This document shows, piece after piece, positions 474-63,100 of a stretch of DNA of 64,000 nucleotides (the first letter of the stretch is position 1; each line of letters starts with the position of its first letter). Location of the stretch: positions 58,782,288 to 58,846,287 of the forward strand of contig OZ023270.1 in the NCBI GenBank assembly GCA_964006375.1, written 5' to 3'. This DNA comes from Tillus elongatus (Eukaryota; Arthropoda; Insecta; Coleoptera; Cleridae). The translations under genes were made by a program, and so were the position numbers. The notes below the pieces were generated by a model. The model was not told where the DNA came from. It worked only from the letters and a program-made list of their open reading frames with translations, and made no database searches.

Positions 474-2094
474 CGACATCTTCCTTTCATTGAAATACTG
501 GAAAAATGACAGATTTTCTTCAACTGTTACATGGCCATCACTGCTTCTTCTAATAACATAATAAGTTAAAATGATGAACTTGGAATTGGTATTCGGTGGT
601 TCTTCAAAATCGAAAACAGGAACAGTTGCGCCTGAAGGTATGATATTCTCTCCTTCGCTTTCACAGTCGGAATCTATTCCTCGATTTAGGTATCCGTACG
701 CATAAATCTTCGAAGTTGTCATTATTTGTGGCTCCGGCCATTTCCACAATTTTTCTTGGTTGACTATGCATTTTGCCTGAAAATATGAAAAACAAAATTG
801 TCCTGCAAAATGTGACGTTTATCAAGGAACCAAAAACTTTTACAAACTTAAAAATTGATGATCCAAAAGCACATGATTTATCGTGAACCATCCATTGCCA
901 TCAAAACTACGTTGAAAACGAAATTACGTGAAAATTGCTTAGGGCTTAAGAAACCAGGAATTTTTGCGAATTGTACTGTTATCAAGTTTCAACATATTAT
1001 TGGAAAACTAGCAATGTTAATCTAGATACACGTGACAGAAACTCATAACACCAGGCAATGTGTACTATATGACACATCTTCACTTGTAGGTAACATGACA
1101 GGGTGTCTAATCAGATACATAATTTTTCAAACGATTTATTATTTTTATTATTTCATCAATGCTAAAAAAAGTACACAGATACCAACCTACAAGCCTAACG
1201 CAAGGTCCAGCGTTAATAAAATTTGGATGAAATTTGTCAAAAATGATAATAAACTATAAATCTCACCTGTTGTACAATAAACAACAACACTCGGCAATAA
1301 TTACATGCACGGTTTGATGGATATGCTCCAGAGGTGACGCTGGATGATTCATAAGAACAAAAAATAACTAAAAAAAATGATAGAAAAGAGGTTTTATGAA
1401 AGATGCATTGCCTATTTGGAGACTAATTTTCACTTCATATGTACAAAAAAAAATCCCAGGTATCTTGGAAATCACATTGTCAAGTTTAGGCTTAAAACTT
1501 TTTTTTAAGTCAGACAAATGTCAAAATACTGCTTGATGTCAATAATGCGTTTGTAAGATTTTCAATCGTTGAATTGTATCAACAGCCAAGTTGATATGTG
1601 AACGCTTAATCTCTGCTGTTGGCGCCTGGTGAACGGAGGCTATGTATTTTATGATTCAACATAATCTCCTTTTACTTAAACATATTTATTACAACGAACC
1701 TGCAACCCATGTATTAGACCTACCAAAAATTACATCCCTGCGAAGACCATGTCTTCACATCTTCCATCACTCCTTTCTTTAAAAAAATATTGCTCGCTTT
1801 TACCCCAATTTCCTCGCAGAGTGTTTTCTGTTCAAGTCCAAATTAACGTAAATTATCTGATTAACTGACATCCAGGTTTAGCTTGATTCAACGGTTTGGT
1901 AATATTTTGCCATAAACTGCATCGATATTTTTGGAAACGGACCCACAAATTTGAAACACACAATAGATTTTTTTACGGTCGCATACAAGGAACATTGATC
2001 AATAAGGGTATTAAGCATATCTTTGTAACCCCGTTAACCCTTAGACATCTTAAAATAATATAGGTACTTGATGATGACGTGAAATTCCAATTTT
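474..2094. other. No recognised gene
   Basis: Short open frames occur on both strands, including a minus-strand frame over 465-749 that begins at the end of the preceding transposon, but none matches a family I recognise. A 16-base string TTGGCGCCTGGTGAAC at 1619-1634 recurs at 37954-37969 in similar flanking sequence, so part of this stretch is repeat-derived. Confidence 0.5.
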
Positions 2095-3400
2095 TCAATT
2101 TTCAACGTTTAACCACGCAAGAAACCGCTATGTCCGCATTCTTTCTAAGGCAAAAAATTCGTTTAATAACCACATCAAAAACAAAGTCCTCTTAAGCTCC
2201 AACGACGGCAAACCCTTCTGGACTCTTGCTAAATCTATTGGGAATAATTTCTGCAAGAGCACGTTCCCACCTCGTGTCTCAGATGAAATGGTTTCTACCG
2301 CCCTGGGCAAGGCTGAACTTTTTACCTCGTTGTTTGCCGGCAATTCTACTATCAACCCACCTCCAAATGTTCAACCACCAACAGTCCCCAATGTCGCGCA
2401 TAAAATGACGGATATCATTTTCAAACTAAAAAGGTACGAAATATGCTGGAAAACTGCTCGAGTACAACCCGTCCCCAAGAAGGGCTCCAAAGCGCTTCCT
2501 AGCAATTACAGGCCTATTTCTCTCCTTTCAGTCGTCTCTAAAGTGATGGAAGAGTATATAAATACCGATCAAAAGCCGACCTCCTTTCCTTTGTCACCCA
2601 TTCATGGAACAAGTCTATGGAACTACACGGTGAATCCCAGATTGTCGCTCTAGACATATCCAAAGCATTCGGCCAGGTCTGGCACGCAGCGCTGCTTAAT
2701 AAACTTCCGGCCTATGGCCTACCACCAAAACTCTGTACGTGGACAGCAAATTTCCTCTCCAACCGGAGCATTTCTGTTGTCGTGGATGGCCATTCCTCTA
2801 AACTGTATCCAATTATTGCAGGAGTTCCTCAAGGTTCAGCTTTAGCCCCTACTTTGTTTCTTCTCCATATCAATGACTTCCTCTCTAGCCCATTCAACCC
2901 AGTTCACAGTTACGCGGACGACAGCACCCTCCACTCAAATATACAATATTCTAAGCCTGTCTCTTTAGCCCAATTAGATGAGGATCGCAGACTCATGGAG
3001 GGTTTTGTCTCCGTGGATCTCCAAAAAATATTAGACTGGGGAAGTAATAATCTTGTACAATTCAACCCCAGCAAATATCAGTCTTGCTTTCTTTCTCATA
3101 AGAGATACATCAGCCCTAGGCCCATCACAATGAACAACCAAGTTATTCAAAGTAATGAGTCCTTTTCACTTGTTGGCATTTCTGTGGATCGAAATCTCAA
3201 TTGGCACCAACATATCACATCAATTGCAGAAGCGGCTGCTAAGAAATTAGGTTTCCTCTTCCGGGCTCGCAAATACTTTTCACCAGCTAATCTCTATACC
3301 TTATATTCTTCACAAATAAAGCCAAACCTCGAATACTGCTCCCACATCTGGGGTGCCGCTGCCGCTTCTACACTCGCTATCCTGGAATGTTACGGTCGAT
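2095..3400 (+). pseudogene. Non-LTR retrotransposon reverse transcriptase fragment, copy 1
   Basis: The plus strand encodes the region upstream of and within a LINE reverse transcriptase. It starts with a pre-RT linker (RYVRILSKAKNSFNNHIKNK), followed by the RT entry motif (SNYRPISLLSVVSKVMEEYI), then DISKAFGQVWHAALLNKLP, GVPQGSALAPTLFLLHINDF and the catalytic YADDSTLH near residue 97 of the main frame. The copy is broken. After KVMEEYINT a stretch present in the second copy is missing, with a frame change near 2560-2620, and homology stops near 3390 in unrelated sequence. There is no endonuclease domain, so it is truncated at both ends. The RT type resembles the jockey/CR1 group found in insects; clade assignment is inference. 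Confidence 0.85.
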
Positions 3401-5222
3401 GTTCTCTTTTTAAAATTTATCGGATAACTAAGCTTTGACATATTGAAATGAAATTTCAGACTGACCTTGCTAATAAGTTATTTCTCCTGTTGATCGCAAT
3501 ATTTTGTTTATCATAGCCAATCTGATATCCATACATTATTTTTTTGTGATTTTTACCAAGCGTTTTTGTTATTTGACGTATCTATTTTACCTCTTGAGAA
3601 GCTATAGTATTACTTTTTGCTAAGAATATACATTTTTGGGGTGCATTTATTTGTGTCTTTTAGAAGATTATTTACTTTGGATACAGCAAAATGTTCTCAG
3701 TAATTTTTGGTAACCGTATGTTATGACCTCTTAAGGATATATCTGGGTATATTAGAAAACATTGGCAGTTAATGTCACTTCCTTGGAGCAACCCAATTGA
3801 TGAATGCTTAACTAAATTTAAAAGACCTAAAGAAATAATGTATCAATTCCACAGATATTTCATTATTGGTATATTGTTTCATTTGTTATTAATTATTCAT
3901 CGTACTTTACAAATACGTTTACTGTCTGTGCTTGCAAAAGAACAGTCTTTTGCCAGACCTAACCCTACCGTCATCTTTTCAAATTTTGTAATTATTTTCT
4001 CTCGTTAGTATGTGAAATATTTCAACTTTGTTCCAATTATATTTAGTCAGTAGGCCACTGTGCTTCTCTTAAGGTACCAAAGTGGAAACAGTTATGGATG
4101 AGATGGATAGGCTGTTGAAAATGGCTTTGCGATACCCTACTTATTATTAAGCCACAGCATAATATGCTGTGATTAAACCTTATTTACTTGGGTAATCCGC
4201 ATCGAAACTTTTGATGCCACAGGTCCTGGACAGGCTGGAAAATTACCGTTGCTAACTTCATGTCGGTTTCTCTTATTTTCAACCAAACTATTAGATGTAT
4301 CTGTTAACTGTCATTTCTTTAATTTTGTAAATAATTTGGTTGAACTTCGATGTTTCTTAGCCGGGCTACTTATTTTTCGCTTATGCAATTTTTTCGCCAA
4401 TTATAAGTTACCTACATAAATTTGTGATAGAGAATGTGTCAAGATCACATTCAGTTTTGGTGAAATCATTCACAAGTGAAAGTAAATTTCACGTTGACTG
4501 GAGACTTTGTTGGTAGTACATAAATTATTTTGTATTGGTTAAAGACATTTCATGTTTAATTCTGGGTAGGGTCACCCTCATTATTTCTCTAAATTCACAG
4601 CATTGGATAGCTAGCTTTGGTGATTTCAGGTAGCTGCTCATATTTTTTGTATAGGGTCTGTCCCATTTTAATACCCGGGCAGGAATCTTTACTTCAGGCT
4701 TCAGGTCACTTTGCTTTAGAAGGTATCAGATAAAGCACCCAGACCTAGTCCGTAATTATTCACTAAGCTCTACCGTTTACCTCCGTGTTTCGGTGTTTTA
4801 CTGTGTAGGAAAGTTCCTTATTTCTAATGAAATTTGAGTTGTTTTCAGTTGTACGGACGTAATGTTTCTGTCTGTAGACACAACATTGTAGGAATTCGAG
4901 GATGACCATATCTAATATATCTGCCTCATACTTTAAAGACTGCAATATTTTATCGCCAGTTGCTTTGTCAATATCATTGTCTGATTTCATTATTCTATTC
5001 GTAGCTCATGTGTAAGTCGGTAAAATGGTACCTAGTTTGCAGCTAAGGCCAACGAATAAAACAAGAAGAAAACTCACATTTTACACTATGATTATTACCT
5101 TTATTGCTTTACATCGTACATGTTTATTCAATAAGTCTAAGACTTGTGCTGAATATTAACATAATTTTATATAGATAGTTGCATCTAAAACTGCTTGACA
5201 ACACTCCAAATTCAACAAAAGA
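3401..5222. other. No recognised gene
   Basis: AT-rich sequence between two LINE copies. Short open frames at 3772-4008 (+) and 4763-4990 (-) show no family motifs. I see no repeats that match the rest of the window. Confidence 0.4.
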
Positions 5223-6572
5223 TCATTAAGTATATAAACACCGAATTACTAAAATTTCTTGAAAAACAGTCTAATCCACGACAGGCAGTATGGATTCCGT
5301 CAGCGCAGATCAACTGCCGACCTCCTTTCCTTTGTCACCCATTCTTGGAACAAGTCTATGGAACTACACGGTGAATCCCAGATTGTCGCTCTAGACATAT
5401 CCAAAGCATTCGACCAGGTCTGGCACGCAGCGCTGCTTAATAAACTACCGGCCTATGGCCTACCCCAAAACTCTGTACGTGGACAGCAAATTTCCTCTCC
5501 AACCGGAGCATTTCTGTTGTCGTGGATGGCCATTCCTCTAAACTGTATCCAATTAATGCAGGAGTTCCTCAAGGTTTAGCTTTAGCCCCTACTTTGTTTC
5601 TTCTCCACATCAATGACCTCCTCTCTAGCACATCCAATCCAGTTCACAGTTACGCGGACGACAGCACCCTCCATTCCAATATACAATATTCTAAGCCTGT
5701 CTCTTTAGCCCAACTAGATGAGGATCGCAAACTCATGGAGGGTTCTATCTCCGTGGATCTCCAAAAAAGATTAGACTGGGGAAGTAAAAATTTTGTACAA
5801 TTCAACCCCACCAAATCTCAGTCTTGCTTTCTTTCTCATAAGAGATACACCAGCCCTAGACCCATCACAATAAACAACCAAGTTATTCAAAGTAATGAGT
5901 CCTTTTCACCTGCTGGCATCTCTGTGGATCGAAATCAAAATTGGCACCAACATGTCACATCAATTGCAGAAGCGGCTGCTAAGAAATTAGGTTTCCTCTT
6001 CCGGGCTCGCAAATACTTTTCATCAGCTAATATCTATACTTATACTTCACAAATAAAACCAAACCTCGAATACTGCTCCCACATCTGGGGTGATCTGCCG
6101 CTTCTACACTCCCTATCCTGGACTCCATTGAGAAGAGAGCTATACGTCTCATCGGTGACCCTACCCTCACCCAAAGGCTGCCATCCCTTGCCCACCGACA
6201 TGCCGTTGGTGACCTCTCTCTCTTTTATAGATATCTGCACGGGCACTGCTCAGAGGAGCTTTCCTCCATAGTTCCTCCACCTGCTGCCCCCAACAGATCT
6301 ACCAGGAGAACAGAGCGAATGCACCCTTTTACTGTCCAGGTCACCAGACATAGAACATCTTGTTATGCCCGCTCTTTTGTCCCGAAGACTTCCAAGTTGT
6401 GGAATTCCTTGCCGGCACATGTTTATCCTTCTCCTCCGAACCTCCAAACCTTCAAGTCCAGAATTAACAAGTTGCCTCTTTACTCCTTGTCGACACCCAC
6501 GGTACGATAGTATTTAGACTGTAAGCCCTCGTGGTGTGTTGTTGAAATTAAAATAAAATATTATATTTTGTC
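5223..6572 (+). pseudogene. Non-LTR retrotransposon reverse transcriptase and 3' end, copy 2
   Basis: Same element as the fragment at 2095-3400 and nearly identical to it where they overlap. It retains the segment missing there (LIHDRQYGFRQRRSTADLLS), then DISKAFDQVWHAALLNKLP, a frameshift near 5460-5520, GVPQGLALAPTLFLLHINDL, catalytic YADDSTLH, the thumb region, and after more shifts near 6040-6110 the C-terminal conserved piece with RSFVPKTSKLWNSLPAHVYP at 6370-6430. The 3' end is an A-rich tail (AAATTAAAATAAAATATT) ending near 6570. It is 5'-truncated near 5223. Frameshifts and an in-frame change at the palm show it is dead. It shows the original 3' end of this LINE family. Confidence 0.87.
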
Positions 6573-13090: not shown

Positions 13091-13117
13091 TTTTTGTGAC
13101 GGTAATAGTGTTATTTA

Positions 13118-13687
13118 TCAAAAAATTGTGGGAACGCCGTCAGTTGTAGAATAAAACTCTTTATTATATAGGCCGAGCTTTCGGAAAAATTTATTTCTTT
13201 ATCAAGGCTACAACATGGAAAGAAAAAAGTTTACAATTTACGTGGAAAAAATATAAAAGTTTAAAATACTTACATATAACATGAGTTTTACTAAACTATT
13301 TATCTAATAACAAACATAAAAAGAAAATTTAATAAACTTAGAGAAAGATAATAATTTTAGAAATCACTACCCCTTCTTATATTTCCTAGACAAAACAAAA
13401 AACAAATTCAATTAAACAATATTTAGCTTTATATGTCAGTTTGGCATTTATTAGACTTCAATCAAATTCATCAAAAGGTTTTCTTTTTATGTTTGTTATT
13501 AGATAAATAGTTTAGTAAAACTCATGTTATATGTAAGTATTTTAAACTTTTATATTTTTTCCACGTAAATTGTAAACTTTTTTCTTTCCATGTTGTAGCC
13601 TTGATAAAGGACAAAATTTTTCCGAAAGCTCGGCCTATATAATAAAGAGTTTTATTCTACAACTGACGGCGTTCCCACAATTTTTTG

Positions 13688-13688
<1 letters not shown>
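13118..13688. mobile_element. Fold-back element with 210-bp inverted arms and Penelope-like hammerhead-type motif
   Basis: The arm at 13118-13327, starting TCAAAAAATTGTGGGAACGC, is nearly perfectly inverted at 13479-13688, with a 151-bp spacer. The outer ends are flanked by TA on each side and then by (AT)n on the right. Each arm contains, reading outward, CCTTGATAAAG, a short stem region, CCGAAAGCTCGGCC and AATAAAGAGTTTTATTCTAC. The order TGATRA, stem, GAAA, GCTC is like the decayed hammerhead core of Penelope-like elements (canonical CTGANGA and GAAA). The substitutions suggest that it is inactive. No protein is encoded. Whether this is a DNA fold-back or two inverted Penelope-type LTR copies is uncertain. 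Confidence 0.85.

Positions 13689-13776
<88 letters not shown>
13689..13776. repeat. (AT)n microsatellite
   Basis: AT run of about 88 bases with a single TG interruption near 13702, abutting the right end of the fold-back. Confidence 0.99.
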
Positions 13777-15029: not shown

Positions 15030-15624
15030 CAAAATCAATCGTATCTCAAGAACAACTTTTTTATGTCATGCGACTTCATTGCCTATAAAAATATCCCAAA
15101 AATTGTTTTAACAAAATTTAGAAGCCAATTAATATAATGTTTCCTATTTTCTTAATGAAAAAGATGGTTTATTGTTTGAGTATTAAATCAATCAGACATG
15201 GCAACCTTTCAGAACTGTATAAAACCGCCGACGATATTTTTATGTTACCTAGTCCAACTGGCAGATTGCTCTGCCAGTTAGCTATATACAATTGACAGGA
15301 TTGCGTCAGTTACAGAAATATTTCGTTTCGGTTCTAATGGGGTTCCCATATAACCTTATATCTCTACCAAATTGTGAACAACCTGCTTTACGTTTTTATT
15401 CTTTAATAGTACTTTTTTTCTGATTTCAGTAAAGTAAAATGTCCAATTTATCATACAGATCTCATTTCACTTGATTATGTTGTACGGTCAAAATAATAAT
15501 AAAAAGTCCAATGACTATTGTTGTAACTACGTAATGACTGCAGCTGTGACATACGAATTGTGACCTTAAGTACCTATTCCAGTGCTGACTGAGATTGTCC
15601 GTACCCCGTCTACATCTGCAAGAG
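15030..15624 (+). other. Upstream region of the SPOP gene with a possible 3' splice site
   Basis: Before the start codon the sequence TTTTTTTCTGATTTCAG ending at 15429 is a good polypyrimidine tract plus AG, so an upstream non-coding exon may splice into the coding exon near 15430. An 11-codon upstream open frame starts at ATG 15439. The palindrome CTGGCAGATTGCTCTGCCAG lies near 15258. No TATA box or initiator could be fixed. All of this is inference from short motifs. Confidence 0.35.
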
Positions 15625-16749
15625 ATGGCCGTCAGCCGTGTTCCAAGCCCCCCACCTCAGGAAATCAACACTCCCGTTGCGGAGAACTGGTGTTACACAC
15701 AGGTGAAGGTGGTCAAGTTTAGCTACATGTGGACGATAAACAATTTTAGTTTCTGTCGCGAGGAGATGGGTGAAGTGCTGAAATCCTCCACGTTCTCTGC
15801 TGGTGCCAATGACAAACTCAAATGGTGCCTAAGGGTCAACCCCAAAGGCCTGGACGAAGAGAGCAAGGACTACCTGTCGTTGTACCTTCTTCTGGTGTCC
15901 TGCAATAAAAGCGAAGTTCGTGCTAAGTTCAAGTTTAGCATTTTGAACGCAAAACGGGAAGAGACCAAGGCCATGGAGAGTCAGAGGGCTTATAGGTTTG
16001 TACAGGGCAAGGACTGGGGTTTCAAAAAGTTTATCAGGAGGGACTTTCTTCTGGATGAAGCCAACGGGTTGTTACCTGATGATAAACTGACAATTTTTTG
16101 TGAAGTGAGCGTTGTTGCGGACAGTGTGAACGTTTCAGGTCAGTCAAACACTGTCCAATTCAAAGTGCCGGAATGTAGACTATCCGATGATCTCGGACTA
16201 TTGTTTGAAAACCAAAAGTTTAGCGATGTAACTTTATCAGTAGGTGGTAGGGAGTTCCAAGCACATAAGGCCATTTTAGCGGCGAGAAGTCCAGTTTTTC
16301 AAGCAATGTTTGAGCACGAAATGGAAGAGCGCAAACATAATAGAGTAGACATCACTGACGTGGACCATGAAGTACTCCGTGAGATGCTCAGGTTTATCTA
16401 CACCGGGAAAGCTTCAAATTTGGAAAAGATGGCTGATGATCTCCTGGCTGCCGCTGATAAATACGCATTAGAAAGACTGAAAGTGATGTGTGAAGAAGCT
16501 TTGTGTACGAACTTATCGATAGAGAATGCCGCGGAGATTTTGATTCTTGCCGATCTTCATAGCGCTGATCAGCTCAAGGAACAGGCCATCGATTTTATCA
16601 ACACCCATGCCACGGATGTCATGGATACACCGGGATGGAAATCTATGATACAAACACATCCACACCTCATAGCGGAAGCTTTCCGCGCCTTAGCAACACA
16701 GCAGATACCTCCGATAGGACCACCTAGGAAACGCGTCAAACAGAACTAA
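15625..16749 (+). CDS. SPOP (rdx): SPOP/roadkill, MATH-BTB substrate adaptor of cullin-3 ubiquitin ligase
   Basis: A complete 374-residue protein, the same length as human SPOP, on one uninterrupted frame. The ATG at 15625 (purine at -3, G at +4) gives the N-terminus [11 protein letters not shown] seen in insect roadkill; no in-frame ATG lies upstream before a stop. The MATH domain (about 28-166) recruits substrates, and the binding-groove residues Tyr87, Phe102, Tyr123, Trp131 and Phe133 of human SPOP are all conserved. The BTB domain (about 190-297, [20 protein letters not shown]) dimerises and binds cullin-3. A BACK-like region follows (about 300-355), then the basic nuclear-localisation tail PPRKRVKQN. 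Family role: ubiquitination of nuclear and signalling proteins, in flies including Ci/Gli of the Hedgehog pathway. Coding sequence is less AT-rich than its surroundings. The missing introns suggest a retrocopy or intron loss. No frameshift or stop is present, so it looks functional. Confidence 0.95.
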
Positions 16750-19329: not shown

Positions 19330-20725
19330 TTATTCATGGAATTGTGCAAAACAAGGCTAAAAACGCTACATTACATGATTTACATATTAGTCTTGACCTT
19401 TGTACCTTCTCTTTGGTACTGCAAAACCCACAAGTCCTATTTTTTGACTTGAACTAGTATACACGGGTCGTTCTTTGCTGACCACTCACAGATGCTTCAC
19501 TTCCTATTTTTCTTATTGTGTTTTCTTAGAATGTACTGGTCTTTCCATCTTCCTCACAAAATAATGTGGGATATTGGCTTTCTCTTACTGCATACCATCG
19601 TCGTTTCATACAAAATGGAAGAACTGATAATAACAGCGTTTAGTAGGTAGAAAAAAATGTAACCACCATCTTCTCGATTTTCATAAGATATAGTAGATAC
19701 AAATCAACTCCACCCATGAATCGTTTGTAATCTGCAATTGCTTCAGGACATTTAACAGTTTCTCTAATACCATTTTTTGTTCATAGTACTGTTATAGTTG
19801 GAATCCATCACATATTTTTCTTAGAATGTACTGGTCTTTCCATCTTCTTCCTCACAAAATAATGTGGGATATTGGCTTTCTCTTACTGCACACCATCGTC
19901 GTTTCATACAAAATGGAATAACTGATAATAACAGCGTTTAGTAGGTAGAAAAAATTTAACCACCATCTTCTCGATTTTCATAAGATAGAGTAGATACAGA
20001 TCAATTCCACCCATGAATCGTTTGTAATCTGCAATTGCTTCAGGACATTTAACACTTTCTCTAATACCATTTTTATTTGTTCATAGTACTGTTGTTATAG
20101 TTGGATTGTAAAAAAATAATAACTATCACAGATTTTTCTTAGAATGTACTGGTCTTTCCATCTTCTTCCTCACAAAATAATGTGGGATATTGACTTTCTC
20201 TTACTGCACACCATCGTCGTTTCATACAAAATGGAAGAACTGATAACAGCGTTTAGTAGGTAGAAAAAATTTAACCACCATCTTCTCGAATTTCATAAGA
20301 TAGAGTAAATTCAGGGCATTTAAGACTTTCTCTAATACCATTTTTTGTTCATAGTACTTTTGTTATAGTTGGATTGTAAAAAAATAATAACTATCACAGA
20401 TTTTTCTTAGAATGTACTGGTCTTTCCATCTTCTTCCTCACAAAATAATGTAGTATATTGGCTTTCTCTTACTGCACATCATCGTCGTTTCATACAAAAT
20501 GGAAGAACTGATAATAACAGCGTTTAGTAGGTAGAAAAAATTTAACCACCATCTTCTCGATTTTCATAAGATAGAGTAGATACAGATCAACTCTACCCAC
20601 GAATCGTTTGTAATCTGCAATTGCTTCAGGACATTTAACACTTTCTCTAATAGCATTTTTATTTGTTCATGGTACTTTTGTTATAGTTCGATTATAAAAA
20701 AAACTAATAACTATCACAGATTTTT
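19330..20725 (-). pseudogene. piggyBac-type transposase relic with a 4x tandem internal repeat
   Basis: On the minus strand each repeat unit encodes a piece matching the core of PGBD/piggyBac transposases: SVKCPEAIADYKRFMGGVDL (family form CPEAIADYNKFMGGVD) followed by residues resembling the KWWHRIFYYLID segment. The unit, which reads CTTAGAATGTACTGGTC on the plus strand, starts near 19525, 19820, 20138 and 20406, so the same 268-318 bp piece is present four times head to tail. Left of the array, 19370-19500 encodes CGFCSTKRRR-like residues that fit the C-terminal zinc-binding domain. Stops and shifts are frequent, so it is dead. The N-terminal part is not recognisable to the right. Confidence 0.8.
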
Positions 20726-23439: not shown

Positions 23440-25610
23440 CAAAAAGTCACTTTAGGTACAGGCCAGGCCACGTAGGGTAACTAAGATACTTCAGCAAAAT
23501 ATTTGGAAAATTGTTAAAATTTTGAAAGTTCTTTAGAAATGTATCTAATAAAATATTAGTAATTTGAACCGTTTGTTTATTGTTTACCATAAACTTTGAA
23601 ATCTTTAACCAATCCTTATCTTGGCAGTCTGGGCACAAATATTTCTTACTTGCTTCTCTCTGTGTATTACAAATAGGCTCAGTGCATGTACGGCATGATA
23701 TCTTGGATTTTCTACCCCGAGCTCTGCGACAAATGCTGCACCTTCGATTTGTATACCGTGGTGTCTGGCTAGGAGGATCTTCTCCAATTCCTGTATTACT
23801 TTTAGCAAGAAATAAATATGTAGCGGTCTTTACAGGTTTGTGAAAATTATTATTGTTTTGTTTCCTGTTTTGAACATATAAGAGTGCAAGTTCTTGTGCC
23901 AAGGTCTGTAAAAAAAATCTTCGTTTACTTCGATCATTACGTTTCCAATTGGGAAACTTTTTAGTAAATATAATATAGTCATTGAGTCCGACCATATCAA
24001 TGATTTCCATAAAAATTCTAAATGGCCATCGAATTGAACGAACACATGAATATTCTCTGATCATTTTATCCCCGGTATCAACGGCCCCTTTGGTTTTATG
24101 ATAATGTAAGATGATTTGAGGCTTACGTTTTGCATTTTCATCACATGATATTTCATCACTGTGAAATTGTGTGGATAAAACCATAACTGCTTTCTTTTTC
24201 TTGGGAACATAAGATACCAGTGTGGTATCGTTAGAAAATCAAAAAATGGTGGACTTTTCTTTACGCACATAATTTGGACGGAACTCGGGAGGAATCTCTT
24301 TCTTGTCTGCTTTTAATTTCGGCTAAAGGAATTGAAGTAAAAAAATGTCCGTTGTAACTCCACCAGGACCATTGAGTTCTTGTTTGTTATCTATCATTCC
24401 AGTGTAAACATCATTGTTCTAAATTACTCAATTTTTATGCCATATCGACCCGGCTTGCTTTTTATGTAAATTCCAAATAGGGCTTCCCTGTGAATGTAGC
24501 TAACCTAACCTCTCATCTGTGATGTTTGTACCAGGTGAATAATTATCAATGCAATTTTCCCAAAGTAATCATATGTGTTGCGAATTTTCTGGAGTTTGTC
24601 TTTTGTTACTGCTATTCTAGCTGTCCTTGTGAATGGGTCACAAAATGTCAAGTGTCTTTATATCATTTTGACTATGTCGAGATATTACGCCAGTAAAAAT
24701 GGTTCTTTGAAAAGTTCATTTTAGACCACATTTCCGTGGGGCGAAGTTTTCTTCCGCAATCTATATCACTTGCTAAAACCACCACAATGAAAGCCTATGT
24801 AGCTAACCTAACCTCTCATCTGTGATGTTTGTACCAGGTGAATAATTATCAATGCAATTTTCCCAAAGTAATCATATGTGTTGCGAATTTTCTGGAGTTT
24901 GTCTCTTGTTTCTGCTATTCTATCTGCCCTTGTGAATGGGTCACAAAATCTCAAGTGTCTATATATCATTTTGACTTTATGTCGAGACATTACGGCAGTA
25001 AAAATGGTTCTGTGAAAAGTTCATTTTTAGACCACATTTCCGTGGGGCGAAGTTTTCTTCCGCGATGTATACCACTTGCTAAAAGCACCACAATGAAAGC
25101 CTATGATTTAGCTACTGTAACATTTATCGACTCAGTTTGGCCAGCAGGATGATGTTTTCATTCTATTTCTTTGTAAAGGTTTTTTTGTTGTCGATTTGTA
25201 TAAATGCATATATCAGCTATCATATTTTGGGTTTATAACATTGGAACGATTCTTTTATTGAAGAATAAGCCATGCTAAAATATTTATTGCGTAGCAAAAT
25301 GCCTATTTTATTTACGAAGTCGATGCTTAAGTATCATTTTGCAACCCTTCACGAGCATTGACTATGTATGGGTTCGGCGTCTTGTAGCTGCAGGTGGCTG
25401 CGTTTTTCATTCATATGCCGATTTTGACTTTAGTATTTCGCCAACGGGCTCAAAAGTTGCATTTTCCTCCTCATCTGCAACAAATTTAATTTCATCTGGC
25501 CTATTTCTTGTTCATTGGCGATGCTCTCTAGTTTACTATCTGTAATTTCAACTTCGCAATCACTGTAGTCACTTTCTTCCAGAATTCTACGTAATTCCTC
25601 CTGGCTTAAA
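23440..25610 (-). pseudogene. piggyBac-type transposase relic
   Basis: Minus-strand order from 25610: an acidic N-terminus (ESDYSDCEVEITDSKLESIA), the segment SRHKVKMIYRHLRFCDPFTR and RAETRDKLQKIRN (family: LRFDDK..R..KLAPIR) at 24990-24810, then VLSTQFHSDE at about 24170, KPQIILHYHKTKGAVDTGDK with the conserved Asp, IRWPFRIFMEIIDMVGLNDY, and a C-terminal cysteine-rich domain (CSICRR, CRTC, CNTQ, LCPDC) at 23760-23620, ending at 23447. These are the usual parts of a piggyBac transposase of about 550-600 residues. Frameshifts at several points and an internal duplication at 24495-25105 show it is not functional. Terminal repeats could not be fixed. Confidence 0.87.
24495..25105. repeat. Tandem duplication, unit about 303 bp, inside the piggyBac relic
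   Basis: TGTAGCTAACCTAACCTCTC begins at 24495 and again at 24798, and the following 300 bases match with scattered differences up to GAAAGCCTATG at about 24799 and 25105. Only the right-hand copy keeps the minus-strand frame open over 60 codons; the left one has a stop and a 2-base loss. The duplication therefore postdates the death of the element or caused it. Confidence 0.9.
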
Positions 25611-31496: not shown

Positions 31497-32940
31497 GTCT
31501 GTAAATCTTTCATTTAAATGTTGCCTGATCGGGCGAGTTAAGGTAGACGATTATTCAAGAAGAAAGGACCAATCATATAACTGTTAACCATAGCACATTT
31601 CACCTTCACCGAAAATACATGCTGAAAATGCGTTTCGATTTGGGATTTGCGTTCGACCATACATGGGACTTCCCGGTATTTTATGTAACTTTGAGGCAAT
31701 CCGCTCTGTGACTTCCTAAGGATTTCTTGATATATATGCAGCACGATGAGTCCAGAGTCTTTGGAGTAAACATCAAATTCCATGATTTAACGGCGCTGCG
31801 AATATTTATAATTTCTTGTTCTGAATCGGGTAAATGTAAAACAATATCTTCTCGCCTTTGACGTGCCGCTGCCTGTGTGGTCAAATGATGTCCATTTTCT
31901 CCCAAATATACTGGCGACATTTCTCTGAGAACTACTTAGCTTAGCTACTTGTTATTGATCATCTTCGCTTTGTCCATTATCAAGCTTGTGGACTTTGTAG
32001 CCCAGCTAAAAAGATCACCGCGATCAAGCCGACGCTCTGTAAATCTTTCATTTAAACGTTGCCTGACCGGGCGAGTTACGGTAGACGATTATTCAAGAAG
32101 AAAGGACCAATCATATAACTGTCAACCATAGCACATTTCACCTTCACCGAAAATACATGCTGAAAATGCGTTTCGACTTGCGTGGGGATTTTCGTCCGAT
32201 CATACATGGGACTTCCCGGTATTTTATGTAACTTTGAGGCAAGCCGATCTGTGACTTCCTAAGAATTTCTCGATATATATGCAGCACGATGAGTCCAGAG
32301 TCTTTGGAGTAAACATCAAATTCCATGATTTAACAGCGCTGCGAATATTTATAATCTATTGTTCTGAACCGGACAAATGTAAAACAATATCTTCTCGCCT
32401 TTGACGTCCTTGACGTGCCGCTGCCTGTGTGGTCAAATGATGTCGATTTTCTCCCAAATATTGTGGCGACATTTCTCTGAGAACTACTTAGCTTAGCTAC
32501 TTGTTATTTATCATCTTCGCTTTGTCCATTATCAGAATGTTGTTCAGGAACATCATTTTCGTTTTCTTCTGGTGAGTATCCAAAAATATTTTCTATGGTT
32601 GATCGTCACTTGCCCACAGCTTTCCAGCGTTCCACTCTGACTAGCAGATAACAAAAAATCACCAATATCTTCTCGTCCTTGACGTGCCGCTGCCTGTGTG
32701 GTCAAAGGATGTCCATTTTCTCCCAAATATTTTGGCGACATTTCTCTGAGAACTAGTTAGCTTAGCTACTTGTTATTTATCATCTTCGCTTTGTCCATTA
32801 TCAGAATGTTGTTCAGGAACATCATTTTCGTTTTCTTCTGGTGAGCATCCAAAAATATTTTCTATGGTGCCAGGTTGATCTTCACTTAGCTTTCCATCTT
32901 TCCACTCTGACTAGCAGATAACAAAAAATCACCCAGGAAT
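31497..32940 (-). repeat. Tandem repeat carrying transposase-like fragments (three overlapping units)
   Basis: A block of about 480 bp at 31497-31975 recurs at 32036-32530, and the second block's right part (from ATATCTTCTCG) recurs again at 32664-32940. Units share TCTGTAAATCTTTCATTTAAA, GCAGCACGATGAGTCCAGAG, CGTGCCGCTGCCTGTGTGG and TCCATTATCAGAATGTTG. On the minus strand two units encode SDENPHA (in one) and THFQHVFSVKVKCAMV.SYMI then GPFFLNNRL, which match the middle of DUF4817-type Tc1/mariner transposases (family: ENPHA...FSVNVWxGI...IGPFFLxxRL). The rest of each unit is not recognised. Frames are broken. Confidence 0.7.
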
Positions 32941-55695: not shown

Positions 55696-56576
55696 TTTCA
55701 ATTTTTTTCAAAATTCAAGTTGTGAACTCCCCATTAGTGAATTTTTTGTAAGAAAATTTATTAAAATGTGGTGGGTGGTGCATTTAAACTAAGGAAACTT
55801 ACCTATATTATCTAAAAACGACAAACTTTGAAACTTTACCGGTGCAATAATTGAATCTGACATTCTCTGTAACCTCCTGTAGCAAATTTTTTTTTTTCAT
55901 CAAGTGTTTCATGAAATACTTTCTTGGACTTTTGAAATAGAGTGTAGTTACCTTATTACTTGAACGACCTGACCTGCCCTTGGCTCATTTTAATTTTTTT
56001 TCAAAATTCAAGTTGTGATCTCCCCAATAGTGAATTTTTTGTAAGAAAATTCATTAAAATGTGGTGGGTGGTGCATTTAAACTAAGGAAACTTACCTATA
56101 TTATCTAAAAACGACAAACTTTGAAACATTACCGGTGCAATAATTGAATCTGACATTCTCTGTAACCTCCTGTAGCAAATTTTAATTTTTTCCATCAAGT
56201 GTTTTATGAAATACTTTCTTGGACTTTTTAAATAGTGTAGTTACCGTATTACTTGAACGACCTGACCTGTCCTCGCTCTCATTTTAATTTTTTTTCAAAA
56301 TTCAAGTTGTGATCTCCCCATTAGTGATTTTTTTAAAAAGAAAATTCATTAAAATGTGGTGGGTGGTGCATTTAAACTCAGGAAACTTACCTATATTATC
56401 TAAAAACGACAAACTTGGAAACTTTACCGGTGCAATAATTGAATTTGTCATTCTCTGTAACCTCCTGTAGCAAATTTTAATTTTTTTAAAATTAAGTGTT
56501 TTATGAAATACTTTCTTGGACTTTTGAAATAGAATGTAGTTACCTTATTACTTGAACGACCTGACCTCTCCTCGGC
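55693..56576. repeat. Tandem repeat, three copies of about 292 bp
   Basis: Units begin near 55693, 55985 and 56279 with TCATTTTAATTTTTTTCAAA and end with TTACTTGAACGACCTGACCT. Each holds GTGGTGGGTGGTGCATTTAA and CTTTACCGGTGCAATAATTG. Copies are about 95% alike. The first unit is fused to the dispersed-family block D. No reading frame is kept. Confidence 0.93.
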
Positions 56577-58979: not shown

Positions 58980-61066
58980 TTAGGTTAGGTTTGTTTGTGA
59001 GTGGGCCATACCGGTGCCTCCACCGCGACCATAAGGTCTATTGTGGCTCACGCCTAATAGTCTATATTTCGCCCAACAAAGCCAGCCTCCTGCAGAGGTC
59101 GATAATCTTCGTGGGCGAAAGTTGATCCAGATCCTCCGGAGCAAACTTTATCTTGCCAAAGAGCAGGTATCTAGTCCTGTCCGCTGCGGGACAGGAACAC
59201 AGCACGTGCTCTGCTGTCTCGTCGCTCTCCATACACAGCTGGCACTCGGTCTCGTGACCGATCCCAATACGGTGCATGTGGTGCCGCAAGCGGCAGTGTC
59301 CTGTATACAGGCCGACTAGAGTACTGAGTTGTTGTCTGTTTAACTCTAGAAGTTTTTTAGCCCTTGACTCATACAGGCCATTTATGAAGGCCTTAGAGTG
59401 GCCTAACCCTGGAAGATTTTGCCAATATTGGATTGTCATTCTTTCTGTCCAGGTCTTTAAGGTGCGTTTTGCTGTGCAATATGTTATCCCCAGTACCGAT
59501 TCTGGCCCGACAAAGTCTCTCTGGGCACCACTCCTGGCAAGCGCGTCGGCCGCAACATTGCCGTCATGGTCCGAGTGACCCGGTATCCAGACCAGCGACA
59601 CCTCATTACAGCTGCCCAGTTCGTTAAGGGCAGATTTACAACTCCATACCGTTTTTGAATTACACCGGTAGGAACCAAGAGCCTTTATTGCAGCTTGGCT
59701 ATCTGCATATATCTTTATCGATTTGTGTTTGCACTGGTTTTTTATATTTACCCTTGCACACATCTCGATGGCATACACTTCTGCCTGGTGTATGGTTGCG
59801 TACTTGCCGAGGCTAGCTGATAGTCTAGCATCGGTGCTGCCCCCATATGCGCCGGCTCCTACTCCCACATTGGTTTTGGAGCCGTCAGAGTACCAGCAGA
59901 GATCGGCTCTAAATAGGGTAGTTTGATTTCGTTCCCAGTCCTCCCTTTCCAGGAGGATTGTCTTGAAAGACATATCTCTACTGATCTTTGTAGGAATCAA
60001 GTCTGAGACCATTCCCAGAATCCCATGAACCTCAATGTCATCCAGACTGATTTCCTTCGGCATACTGTCGGCCGTTTGTTTTAGTCTGTACGTTGTCCAC
60101 CTCGCCACCCTCTCCAACCATATGTGAAGAGGTGGAATATTAAGGAGGACCTCCAGAGCGGCTGATGGTGCGGTGCTTATCGCTCCCGTTATCATCAGAC
60201 AAGCTTGTCTCTGTAGATGAGCCAGTTTGGCCCTCGCGATACCATGAAGTGCCTTAGGCCACCAAACTATGGCTCCATATGTTATCATTGGTCTGATAAC
60301 CACTACATAGAGCCAGTACATCTGTTGGGGGTTTGTTCCCCAGTTGTTTCCACAGATTCTCCGGCATATCCACAGGGACAGTTTAGCCCTGCGGATTACA
60401 TTCTCTAACTGTATGTCCCAGTTGAGCTTCTTATCTAGGGTAACTCCCAGATATTTTGCTTGTTCCGAAAATAGAATCGTTTCCGCCATAAGAATAGGTG
60501 GTTTTAATTTGTCCAACCTTCTTCTTCTGGTAAATGGAACAATGATCGTTTTGCGGGGGTTTACAGACATCTGTTCCCTCCGGCACTAGATTTAGTGTCT
60601 CCTGAAGAGTAATTGCTAGTTCCTCCTCATATTTGCCCCTAACCATTATGACTAGATCATCAGCATACGCCTGGCCCTCAACCTCCCACAGTCCGAGGAT
60701 AGCCAGCAAATCGTCCACAAAGAGATACCACAGCAGGGGGGATAGAACTCCCTCCTGAGGGCACCCCCTCGCAGCCCTGAAGCCGACCACCTCCCCCTGC
60801 AGCGAGGTAATAGCGGTCCGATTGTAGAGCATGATTCCGATCCAGCCACAAATGGTAGGTTCCACCCCTCTAGCGATAGTGGCTTCGTAGAGGGAGATAG
60901 GTAATGCATTGTTGAATGCTCCTTCAATGTCGAGAAATGCAGCCACCGCCACCTCCCCGTTATCCAGGGAGTGTGTGATCTTCTCGACGAGGTTATTGAG
61001 TGCTAACTCAGTAGATTTGCCAGTTTGGTATGCATACTGGTGGGTATTAAGGGGGTTGTTGACTAG
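58980..61066 (-). mobile_element. 5'-truncated non-LTR retrotransposon with RT and RNase H, 12-bp target duplication
   Basis: Bounded by TTTCATCCTAGG at 58968-58979 and 61067-61078. Minus strand from 61066: TGKSTELALNNLVEKI, VAAFLDIEGAFNNA, CPQEGVLSPLLWYLFVDDLL and catalytic YADDLVIM at about 60670-60645. A frameshift near 60555 joins NPRKTIIVPFTRRRRLDKLK, AKYLGVTLDKKLNWDIQLEN and the thumb. Next comes RNase H with its four acidic sites (YSDGSKTNVGVGAGAY, HQAEVYAIE, IYADSQAAIKAL, HSDHDGNVAADALAR), then a CCHC-type zinc motif (CRLRHHMHRIGIGH, ECQLCMESDETAEHVLCSC) and stop at 59062. The 3' end is ACAAACAAACCTAACCTAAC, a CCTAA-like tail. The endonuclease and 5' RT are missing. R1/LOA/I-like grouping is inferred from the RNase H. 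Confidence 0.93.
59062..60570 (-). pseudogene. LINE C-terminal frame: RT thumb, RNase H and zinc motif
   Basis: About 500 codons remain open, so this insertion is relatively young. RNase H lies at about residues 228-350, the zinc motif at about 428-470. The YADD-containing RT palm is in the neighbouring frame 60431-61072, separated by one frameshift. Enzymatically dead as a unit because the RT is split and 5'-truncated. Confidence 0.9.
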
Positions 61067-61917
61067 TTTCATCCTAGGTCTTCATAAAATATTTTTATTT
61101 TATTTCCATGATTTTAGTTTCTCAAAGGAAAATAAATTTTGACGATTTTATTACGATATCGTACCGATTGTATCACCACTATTTGCAGTCCTAGATTCGA
61201 TTAAGGTTCTATAAGTTTTATGGTTTCGGTCAGGTCAGTCATCAATAAATAGATATAAGAAATATACTGAATTTAATAGTCAACTTGGAAATTTTGCTTC
61301 TTTTTCTAAACAAACTTTTGTTAGTTTTCCCAGGTCAAGTTCGTTGGCAGGTTTTGAGTGTTGAGTTTTCGTCACCAAGAAATGGAAATTTTCTTCTCCT
61401 AAATGCTGTATAATTTAGAACTATTAGAATAACTTTATTATTTTACAGATGTGTAAAAACGATTACAATTTACCAACAACCACGAATTTCCGATATAGAA
61501 AACTTATTTTTTTATCTATCTTCTGATTTTAGGCCACAGGTCTACTAAACTAAAGACATGGAGTATACATATCAAACAAGGATGGGGTATAAAGTAGAAC
61601 GCGTAGAAGTGTACATATAAAACAAGGATGGGGTATAAAATAGAACGTGCAGATTGGTCAGGCCCGTTATAGACCTCCAATATTGAGTAGACCTGCGACA
61701 CTCTGTAAACAACGAACGTTTAACACTGAGTGGTGAACGTGTCGCCACCTAGTTGCGAAACCAAGTAGTATGTTGTCACGCCAGCTCCAAATAACACAAA
61801 GTGTTAAAACATGGAGACTGTATACAACTAACTAACAATTTTAGTAAATTGTCAGCCCTGGTCCATTTCTACCCTAATATAGGGACAACGTATGTAAGAC
61901 TAGATACATTCTCACAA

Positions 61918-61978
61918 CAATTAGCACCGTAGACCGGTTTCGCTCTAATTAGAGCTCATCAATACGGCATACTAATTG
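61918..61978 (-). ncRNA. Hammerhead ribozyme, type I, inverted copy (core C changed)
   Basis: Minus strand: CAATTAG, TAT, GCCGTA (stem I 5'), TTGATGA (core; canonical CTGATGA, so its first C is T), GCTCTAATTAGAGC (stem II), GAAA, CCGGTC (2-bp stem III and cleavage site after the C at 61932), TACGGT, one bulged G, CTAATTG (stem I 3'). Stems I and II are fully paired except one G-U. The C-to-T change in the core should reduce or stop cleavage. Confidence 0.82.
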
Positions 61979-62328
61979 CTGCGAAAATACACCTATAAAG
62001 TAATACGGCTATGGTAGCCAGCCTTCCAACACTAAGTGAGTGGTGAACGTGTCGCCACCTAGTTGCGGACCCAAGTGGTGACACGTTCACCACTTACTTA
62101 GTGTTGGAAGGTTGGCTACCATAGCCGTATTACTTTATAGGCATACTAATTGTTGCGAAAATACACCTATCAAGTAATACAGCTATGGTAGCCAGCCTTG
62201 CAACACTAAGTGAGTCGTGAACGTGTCGCCACCTAGTTGCGGATCCAAGTGGTGACACGTTCACCACTCACTTAGTGTTGGAAGGCTGGCTACCATAGCC
62301 GTATTACTTTATAGGTGTATTTTCGCAG

Positions 62329-62389
62329 CAATTAGTATACCGTACTGACGAGCTCTAATTAGAGCGAAACCGGTCTACGGTTCTAATTG
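62329..62389 (+). ncRNA. Hammerhead ribozyme, type I, intact core
   Basis: Order on the plus strand: CAATTAG (62329-62335), internal loop TAT, ACCGTA (62339-62344), conserved core CTGACGA (62345-62351), stem II GCTCTA-AT-TAGAGC, partly sharing the last core base (62352-62365), GAAA (62366-62369), CCGGTC (62370-62375), TACGGT (62376-62381), bulge T, CTAATTG (62383-62389). ACCGTA pairs with TACGGT and CAATTAG with CTAATTG (stem I, 13 bp with an internal loop). A15.1-U16.1 plus one C-G close a minimal stem III. All core bases (CUGANGA, GAAA, UC cleavage site) are canonical. Predicted cleavage lies between 62375 and 62376. This short stem III is typical of Penelope-like and retrozyme hammerheads. 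Confidence 0.92.
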
Positions 62390-62637
62390 TTGTGAGAATG
62401 CATCTAGCCTTACATACTTTGTCTCTATATTAGGGTAGAAATGGGCCAGGGCTGACAATTTACTAAAATTGTTAGTTGGTTGTATATAGTCTCTATTTTT
62501 TAACACTTGTGTTATTTGGAGCTGGCGTGACAACATACTACTCGGTCCCGCAACTAGGTGGCGACACGTTCTCCACTCACTTAGTGTTGGAAGGTTGTCT
62601 ACCATAGCCGTATTATTTTATAGGTGTATTTTCGCAG

Positions 62638-62698
62638 CAATTAGTATGCCGTACCGACGAGCTATAATTATAGCGAAACCGGTCTACGGTTCTAATGG
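62638..62698 (+). ncRNA. Hammerhead ribozyme, type I, with compensatory stem II change (core U changed)
   Basis: Same layout 309 bp downstream: CAATTAG, TAT, GCCGTA, core CCGACGA (62654-62660; the U of CUGANGA is C), stem II GCTATAATTATAGC (62661-62674), GAAA (62675-62678), CCGGTC, TACGGT, bulge, CTAATGG. In stem II a C-G pair of the other copies is replaced by A-T on both sides, keeping the helix. The core change probably weakens this copy. Predicted cleavage position 62684/62685. Confidence 0.88.
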
Positions 62699-63100
62699 TT
62701 GTGAGAATCTAGCCTTACAACGAACGTTTAATAAAGGACAAGTCTGCTACGCAAAGGTACATCGCTTTATATCACGCGAACTTATGTACATGCAATATGT
62801 ATTATCTTTTTATTTTTAAGTTTTATGTATTTTAAAAAGCGATGAAATGCAAAGGTTTTTTTGGAAAGTAACTTCTATCCCAGGTCTTGATAAAATATTT
62901 TCATTTTCTTTCTATAACTTTATTTTTCGAAGGAAATTAAATTTGTATGGTTTTTTTACCGTAACGCTCTAGATGTATCTATACTATTTAGAGTCGTAGA
63001 TTCGATTAAGGTTTTATACATTTTATGATTTCGGTTCTTAGACTAATCATTAAGTAGGTAGGTACAAGCAATTATTGAATTTAATGATGGTCTAATTTAA

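Follow-up and report, generated by a model that had tools for sequence, protein, structure and literature searches.

The closest described relatives of the element reported here are the animal non-LTR retrozymes, whose units of 150–450 bp are low in GC, occur as dimers to multimers, carry a type I hammerhead ribozyme (HHR), lack LTRs, a PBS, a PPT and a coding frame, give circles of about 170–400 nt, and are accompanied by target duplications that, when present, exceed 4 bp (PMC7229834). The main text of that account presents them as direct tandem repeats and uses the word 'inverted' 0 times, mentions insect retrozyme-like repeats in general terms, and names Penelope-like elements (PLEs), on circumstantial grounds, as a strong candidate for retrozyme mobilisation (PMC7229834). 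Plant LTR retrozymes (PMC4918200) share non-autonomy, the hammerhead and a circle-based model (PMC7229834, PMC7761336), but have type III HHRs, LTRs of about 350 bp, 4-bp duplications, a PBS and a PPT (PMC7229834, PMC7761336). The pDo500 repeat of cave crickets is likewise a hammerhead repeat of insects, but was reported as satellite DNA (PMC2837043).

PLEs form head-to-head inverted ends, have two alternative 3′ ends, and generate target duplications (PMC3846280, PMC11167929). In rotifer PLEs the tail is optional at one of the inverted pLTRs, and target duplications of 8, 9 and 10 bp are exemplified (PMC3846280). With the lizard PLE PAc in vitro, both strands were cut and extended, reverse transcription started inside the RNA, and two RT start sites delimited the 'tail' (PMC11167929).

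Here we describe an insertion in Tillus elongatus that combines features of both groups. The stretch analysed (the window, 64 kb, C8:58782288-58846287 of a 1.72-Gb host assembly with 30 contigs) contains a single decayed copy of a small, hammerhead-based mobile element that is very abundant. Like the animal non-LTR retrozymes, this element is dispersed, has a unit of 309/310 nt present as dimers to multimers, a GC content of 42% in its majority sequence and a type I hammerhead, shows no LTRs in its repeat structure and no coding frame, and in part of its copies has target duplications of more than 4 bp. Unlike the plant LTR retrozymes, its HHR is open at stem I and its clear duplications are 12–15 bp long.

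The insertion in the window

The features of the locus are given below, where M is a position on the circular unit, M1 lies directly after the ribozyme cut, and alpha and beta are the two end sites defined further on.

61709..61723, no strand: target-site duplication, left copy (10–15 bp), 15/15 identical to 62717-62731
61724..62716, no strand: whole retrozyme insertion, 993-bp block
61727..62079, − strand: antisense run, M204 to M1 and M309 to M162, 1.14 laps; outer end at the beta site
61920..61974, − strand: hammerhead A, core TTGATGA (C3U), cleavage between 61931 and 61932
61966..62139, no strand: 174-bp tandem duplication, copy 1, 95% identical to 62140-62313; each copy is a hairpin
62066..62141, + strand: sense run M174-249, within the duplicated hairpin
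62140..62253, − strand: antisense run M275-162, within the duplicated hairpin
62140..62313, no strand: 174-bp tandem duplication, copy 2
62240..62719, + strand: sense run M174 to M309, a full lap, and M1-39 (1.55 laps); outer end at the alpha site
62333..62387, + strand: hammerhead B, canonical core CTGACGA, cleavage after 62375
62376..62684, + strand: 309-nt unit bounded by the two + cleavage sites
62642..62696, + strand: hammerhead C, core CCGACGA (U4C), cleavage after 62684
62717..62731, no strand: target-site duplication, right copy

The first-pass annotation had proposed two hammerheads in the same direction exactly 309 bp apart and a third, inverted one to their left, and this is borne out by the cleavage positions of B and C and by the place of A on the − strand. 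Scanned on both strands with a structural pattern, the 64 kb contained type I hammerheads A, B and C and nothing more, and 60 first-order Markov windows yielded no perfect core and, in total, 4 hits with one core mismatch. The covariance-model search that had been suggested as a check found no hammerhead in the window reaching an Rfam gathering score, but Hammerhead_HH9 matched all three hammerheads below threshold, the three matches scoring 30.9, 30.2 and 19.2 bits (gathering score 52), with E-values of 1.7e-5, 2.9e-5 and 0.098 in a 1.2-kb search. Tandem arrays at 19457-20692, 24494-24976, 31498-32868 and 55696-56485 were considered as further retrozymes and rejected, as they contain no hammerhead by pattern scan; their spacings lie near 300 bp, some at 269–318 and 538–586. 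Matches to miRNA families in the window were also rejected, since they sit on foldback hairpins and fall under their gathering scores.

The insertion is flanked by the direct repeat ACAACGAACGTTTAA, identical at 15/15 positions. A target duplication of 13 bp had been proposed; the flanking repeat is real, but its first three and last two bases also fit the unit, so that the true length is 10–15 bp. The block had also been read as a clean insertion with no open frame. No long frame is indeed present, the longest stop-free stretch being 80 aa, but that reading overlooked the 174-bp duplication and the structure of four runs, which follow one another along the circular unit in the order −, +, −, +. 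Without the duplication, the insertion consists of 1.14 antisense laps facing 1.55 sense laps. It is a retrozyme copied in both directions, to which a 174-bp tandem duplication was added.

An intact core is found only in the middle hammerhead, B. Core changes such as C3U and U4C impair the efficiency of hammerhead cleavage. The + transcript of this copy is predicted to fold into a single long hairpin (−730 kcal/mol) that absorbs B together with the complement of A but does not involve C. Since the core of C is mutated and B lies within the predicted hairpin, excision of a 309-nt monomer, as stated earlier for this locus, is open to doubt in the window copy, which, judged from its sequence, probably releases monomer inefficiently. 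With two mutated cores, the copy is presumed inactive, and probably is so.

All three hammerheads contain ACCGGU, which begins with the final A of GAAA and ends with the U that precedes the cut. This palindrome allows a stem III of at most 2 pairs within one ribozyme and six pairs between two. Such a minimal, palindromic stem III resembles that of amphibian retrozyme ribozymes, whose helix III is short and which cut better in dimeric form (PMC7229834), whereas most invertebrate type I HHRs have a stable helix III (PMC7761336).

Other features of the window include LINE-like RT fragments at 59062-61081 (−), 2078-3438 (+) and 5308-6510 (+); the first combines RT with RNase H and lies some 630 bp to the left of the retrozyme, and the best named relatives of one window LINE frame are in Molorchus and Exocentrus. 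An uninterrupted 386-aa SPOP-like frame (MATH, BTB, BACK) at 15589-16749 (+) is perhaps an intronless retrocopy, and an inverted repeat of 216 nt (13112-13327 / 13479-13694) has arms 98% complementary and 151 nt apart.

An abundant family of units in the genome

A search for further copies returned 3,459 occurrences of the exact 31-nt HHR core CTGANGAGCTCTAATTAGAGCGAAACCGGTC in the assembly (1,770 forward, 1,689 reverse), and the reversed-pattern control 0. A search with the unit gave 171 matches within the best 40 of 4,547 candidates. These 40 loci (L009-L048), in which we mapped 42 elements, were those matching one full unit best, and the fractions reported below are therefore not genome-wide rates. 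Most copies have one T more than the 309 nt of the window copy, and the usual unit is therefore about 310 nt long. Runs extend to about 4.5 laps, the longest measuring 1,379 nt (L029). The non-autonomous, retrozyme-like nature proposed at first pass is upheld by thousands of dispersed units, multi-lap insertions, partial target duplications and the lack of coding capacity. The family had also been called possibly undescribed: it is a new family, but of a known kind, since retrozyme-like repeats of insects have been reported already (PMC7229834).

The majority hammerhead core is canonical; across the 40 loci, 112 HHRs are complete, 75 of them with the core intact. A double change in stem II of C had suggested selection on structure. 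This was not upheld by the 112 HHRs, which show 5 paired double changes, 33 one-sided changes that still pair, and 111 broken cells, and thus mainly decay of the copies.

Relatives of the unit were absent from viral contigs and genome contigs (exact patterns), plasmids and phages. Diverged relatives of 78–88% similarity, at L020 52-285, L051 622-771 and L064 2030-2145, suggest older subfamilies, which might supply structural covariation. A hammerhead-like relic, CCGATGA ... GCGAAACC, lies at L073 5052-5083 (−), the same place as L059 3010-3041; it is 84% similar to the retrozyme family over 32 nt and perhaps represents a second retrozyme family.

Insertion-end behaviour shared with Penelope-like elements

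We then compared the arrangement of the 42 mapped elements. Sixteen have a single orientation and 26 have both, in contrast to the direct tandem repeats of the main text of PMC7229834; of these 26, 25 have the order − + and the window copy has − + − +. An overall + − order was seen 0 times, which makes both outer ends of two-orientation elements sense-3′ ends. The same bias is visible among 100 listed places in the first 32 Mb of C1, where pairs of intact HHRs less than 1 kb apart, counted by eye, comprise 9 in − + order, 0 in + − order and 2 in the same direction.

The 68 sense-3′ outer ends fall mainly at two sites, alpha (M33-51, 32 ends) and beta (M200-222, 20 ends), with 16 elsewhere. The two windows, which were set after inspection of the data, thus hold 52 of the 68 ends against 9.2 expected (P about 1e-31 for these post hoc windows). 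As controls, inner junction ends fell into them in 5 of 54 cases (7.3 expected) and outer sense-5′ ends in 2 of 16. The unit contains CTTA exactly twice, at M34-37 and M205-208, and the median end positions, M40 for alpha and M210 for beta, lie directly past it. L022 and L048 have no CTTA exactly at their beta ends (CACTCA, then GTG, then target), although it is present in the inner laps of L048; a slip at initiation perhaps accounts for these two ends. The ribozyme cut itself is not a preferred boundary, as 3 of 68 sense-5′ ends lie there against 1.5 expected, with no pile-up (one of two identical L048 junctions is omitted from this list).

Both ends lie in the windows in 12 of the 26 two-orientation elements (L022, which ends at M54 in the final mapping, is excluded), and in 12/12 of these one end is alpha and the other beta (label permutation p 0.0016). 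The remaining 14 are alpha/other (8), beta/other (4) and other/other (2). Two preferred sense-3′ ends set this family apart from published animal non-LTR retrozymes as described in PMC7229834.

Target duplications were assessed by a uniform test in which the flank repeat of an element was compared with flanks of other elements and called significant if reached by at most 5% of mismatched flanks. On this basis 12 of the 42 elements have a target duplication. Significant repeats were found in 8/12 alpha/beta elements, leaving 4/12 without, as against 1/16 single-orientation elements (Fisher p 0.0012), which are thus usually without a target duplication. They were also found in 3/12 elements with one site (L022, L036, L044) and in 0/2 with no site; for all two-orientation elements the comparison is 11/26 vs 1/16 (p 0.015). 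Exact repeats of 12–15 bp flank L017, L020, L022, L026, L034, L036, L042 and L048, and the 9-bp repeat of L044 may be due to chance.

Non-consensus bases shared between copies give some insight into the template. Laps of one run share them at 0.69% of compared sites (95% interval 0.39–1.01) and opposite arms of one element at 0.53% (0.39–0.69), as against 0.11% for different elements, so laps and arms tend to derive from one template sequence. Overall discordance is 6.6% between laps, 7.1% between arms and 7.0% between elements. As it is not clearly lower within elements, most differences must have arisen after insertion, and the same-template reading rests on the rare shared variants. Multi-lap runs cross the ribozyme cleavage site freely, which, together with the lack of clustering of sense-5′ ends, argues against cut linear monomers as the usual template. 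From the sequences, circles and uncut multimers would fit as the template equally well.

In the majority sequence, M38-43 is predicted to pair with M208-214 on one helix of the folded circle, and 1.6% of window pairs would pair equally well. At least two of the expected alpha-beta pairs are kept in 14 of 82 near-complete single laps, and the predicted fold of the window's own unit differs from the majority alpha-beta pairing. The model hints that alpha and beta might face each other in the folded circle.

The first-pass annotation had mentioned PLE pLTR arrays as one known form of such layouts. In this genome, PLE-type GIY-YIG domains give a very large number of hits (150 of 14,221 candidates were scored). 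Three tested frames carry RT and GIY-YIG together, the RT match of the third being under the cut-off, and the best named relatives of one PLE frame are in Aromia, Molorchus and Tribolium. The PLE tail gave 34 matches in 28 loci, among which L059/L073 and L060/L070 are the same places. Read by eye, tails have a short end, ...AAGTGTACTTAT, or a long one about 38 nt further, which reads ...TTTTCACATAGTG in one subfamily and ...ATCTTCACTTAGTG in another. Two do not fit this scheme: the match in L057 stops earlier, and the long end of L068 carries a deletion within it. For ten copies (L054, L058, L062, L063, L065, L066, L067, L070, L074 and L075) the fetched stretch covers both ends, which were set by hand; in 10/10 of them a short end is paired with a long one (permutation p 0.0055). 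Flank repeats of 10–13 bp reach the 5% level, from 60 random draws, in 9/10 (not L054), next to the 8–10 bp of the rotifer examples.

The 10-nt sequence TCACTTAGTG is common to the beta site of the retrozyme and the long end of the second PLE subfamily; as a bare word it has a BLAST E of 0.087, and its position relative to the insertion end is identical in both. No alignment between the retrozyme unit and the PLE tail extends past these 10 nt. Hammerheads are present in published PLEs, but here a pattern search of L049-L068 and L049-L076 found none apart from the separate L059/L073 relic, and seven PLE loci (L069-L072, L074-L076) gave no Rfam hammerhead match up to E 5. The PLE link is supported as the likely source of the enzyme; the unit itself is not a pLTR of any PLE readable in this genome.

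Taken together, the retrozyme shares with PLEs the head-to-head inverted ends, two alternative 3′ ends and target duplications (PMC3846280, PMC11167929), and by its sequence probably also a start of reverse transcription inside the RNA, described for PAc (PMC11167929). It differs from them in having no RT or endonuclease frame and in the distance between its end sites, which is 171 nt on the unit as against 30–40 nt in PLEs (PMC3846280, PMC11167929). The retrozyme therefore inserts in a PLE-like manner without being a PLE. The two-site behaviour of the ends is visible in the PLE papers in other terms; for a retrozyme, the literature searched (titles and abstract openings, with subscription papers mostly outside) yielded no description of it, nor of head-to-head insertions or their end sites.

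A model for insertion and its alternatives

We consider it likely that the element is a non-autonomous animal non-LTR retrozyme that is reverse transcribed by PLE machinery, with each of the two staggered DNA ends of the target priming at a different site of a circular or multimeric RNA. A multimeric transcript would cut itself at its type I hammerheads, which, since stem III contains the self-complementary ACCGGU, probably work in pairs, by analogy with amphibians. The monomers would be closed to circles of about 310 nt. An RT/GIY-YIG protein, which we take to come from a PLE of the same genome, would make a staggered cut leaving 3′ overhangs of about 10–15 nt, the length suggested by the target duplications. 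Both overhangs may then prime on the sense RNA past CTTA at alpha and beta, the sites indicated by the end statistics. As read from the copies, each cDNA would extend for a fraction of a lap to several laps, passing through the ribozyme cleavage site, and the two cDNAs would be joined at scattered points into a head-to-head insert with sense-3′ ends outward; the arm junctions of two-orientation elements are indeed scattered. If one end only were extended, a single-orientation copy would result, mostly without a target duplication, in line with the association above. The window copy would be an alpha/beta insertion altered afterwards by the 174-bp tandem duplication and the core mutations.

Several other origins deserve weighing. 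L1 twin priming generates inversions, and a LINE (R1, Jockey or similar) that mobilised the retrozyme by target-primed reverse transcription with twin priming would likewise yield inverted copies with target duplications; LINE fragments do occur in the window. We regard this as unlikely, because the outer ends lie at fixed internal sites with one of each in 12/12 elements and no poly-A tail, and because the two-site rule and the 10-nt end sequence recur in the PLEs, a comparison that covers PLE ends only. A single cDNA that folds back and primes itself, as proposed for rotifer PLEs (PMC3846280), could produce the head-to-head form without a second priming. In the window copy the turning points of the two arms coincide (M162/M165, 16-nt loop), so this copy is compatible with such an origin of its turn; L038 turns at M165/M165. 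Inner arm positions at most 30 nt apart, however, were counted by eye in just 3 of 26 two-orientation elements (L023, L038 and L048, the window copy among the three), about 5 being expected by chance, and foldback gives no reason to expect alpha at one outer end and beta at the other, which makes it improbable as the general explanation.

The fixed position of the ends is also what would be expected if two sorts of linear RNA simply had their 3′ termini at alpha and beta and were copied by run-off priming, with no circle and no internal start. We doubt this as well, since 12/12 alpha/beta pairs are improbable under a random choice of RNA (p 0.0016, as above) and runs longer than one lap traverse the ribozyme cut. 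Very improbable, in our judgement, is that ordinary satellite or foldback sequences were reshuffled as DNA and carried the hammerheads along: tandem and inverted repeats and the 174-bp tandem duplication would suit such an origin, but dispersed copies with common end sites and target duplications, and ribozyme cores conserved exactly in their thousands (3,459), speak against it.

The preferred reading, PLE-type reverse transcription from both ends of the target, can be taken one step further, though tentatively and as a possibility that we hold to be rather less probable than its converse. Two-site, two-ended priming might be the normal course of PLE integration, in which one RNA-protein complex would contain a single RNA with two start sites and offer one site to each 3′ overhang, and the retrozyme circle might expose the two strands of a single stem to a two-fold enzyme. 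If true, one small circle would be copied simultaneously from both DNA ends. The preferred reading itself ties older puzzles of PLEs, namely the inverted pLTRs, the optional tail and the variable target duplications, to one event, in which both cut DNA ends would prime at different RNA sites. Retrozymes encode nothing, and a rule for insertion ends that they have in common with PLEs of the same genome makes their return to the genome directly testable.
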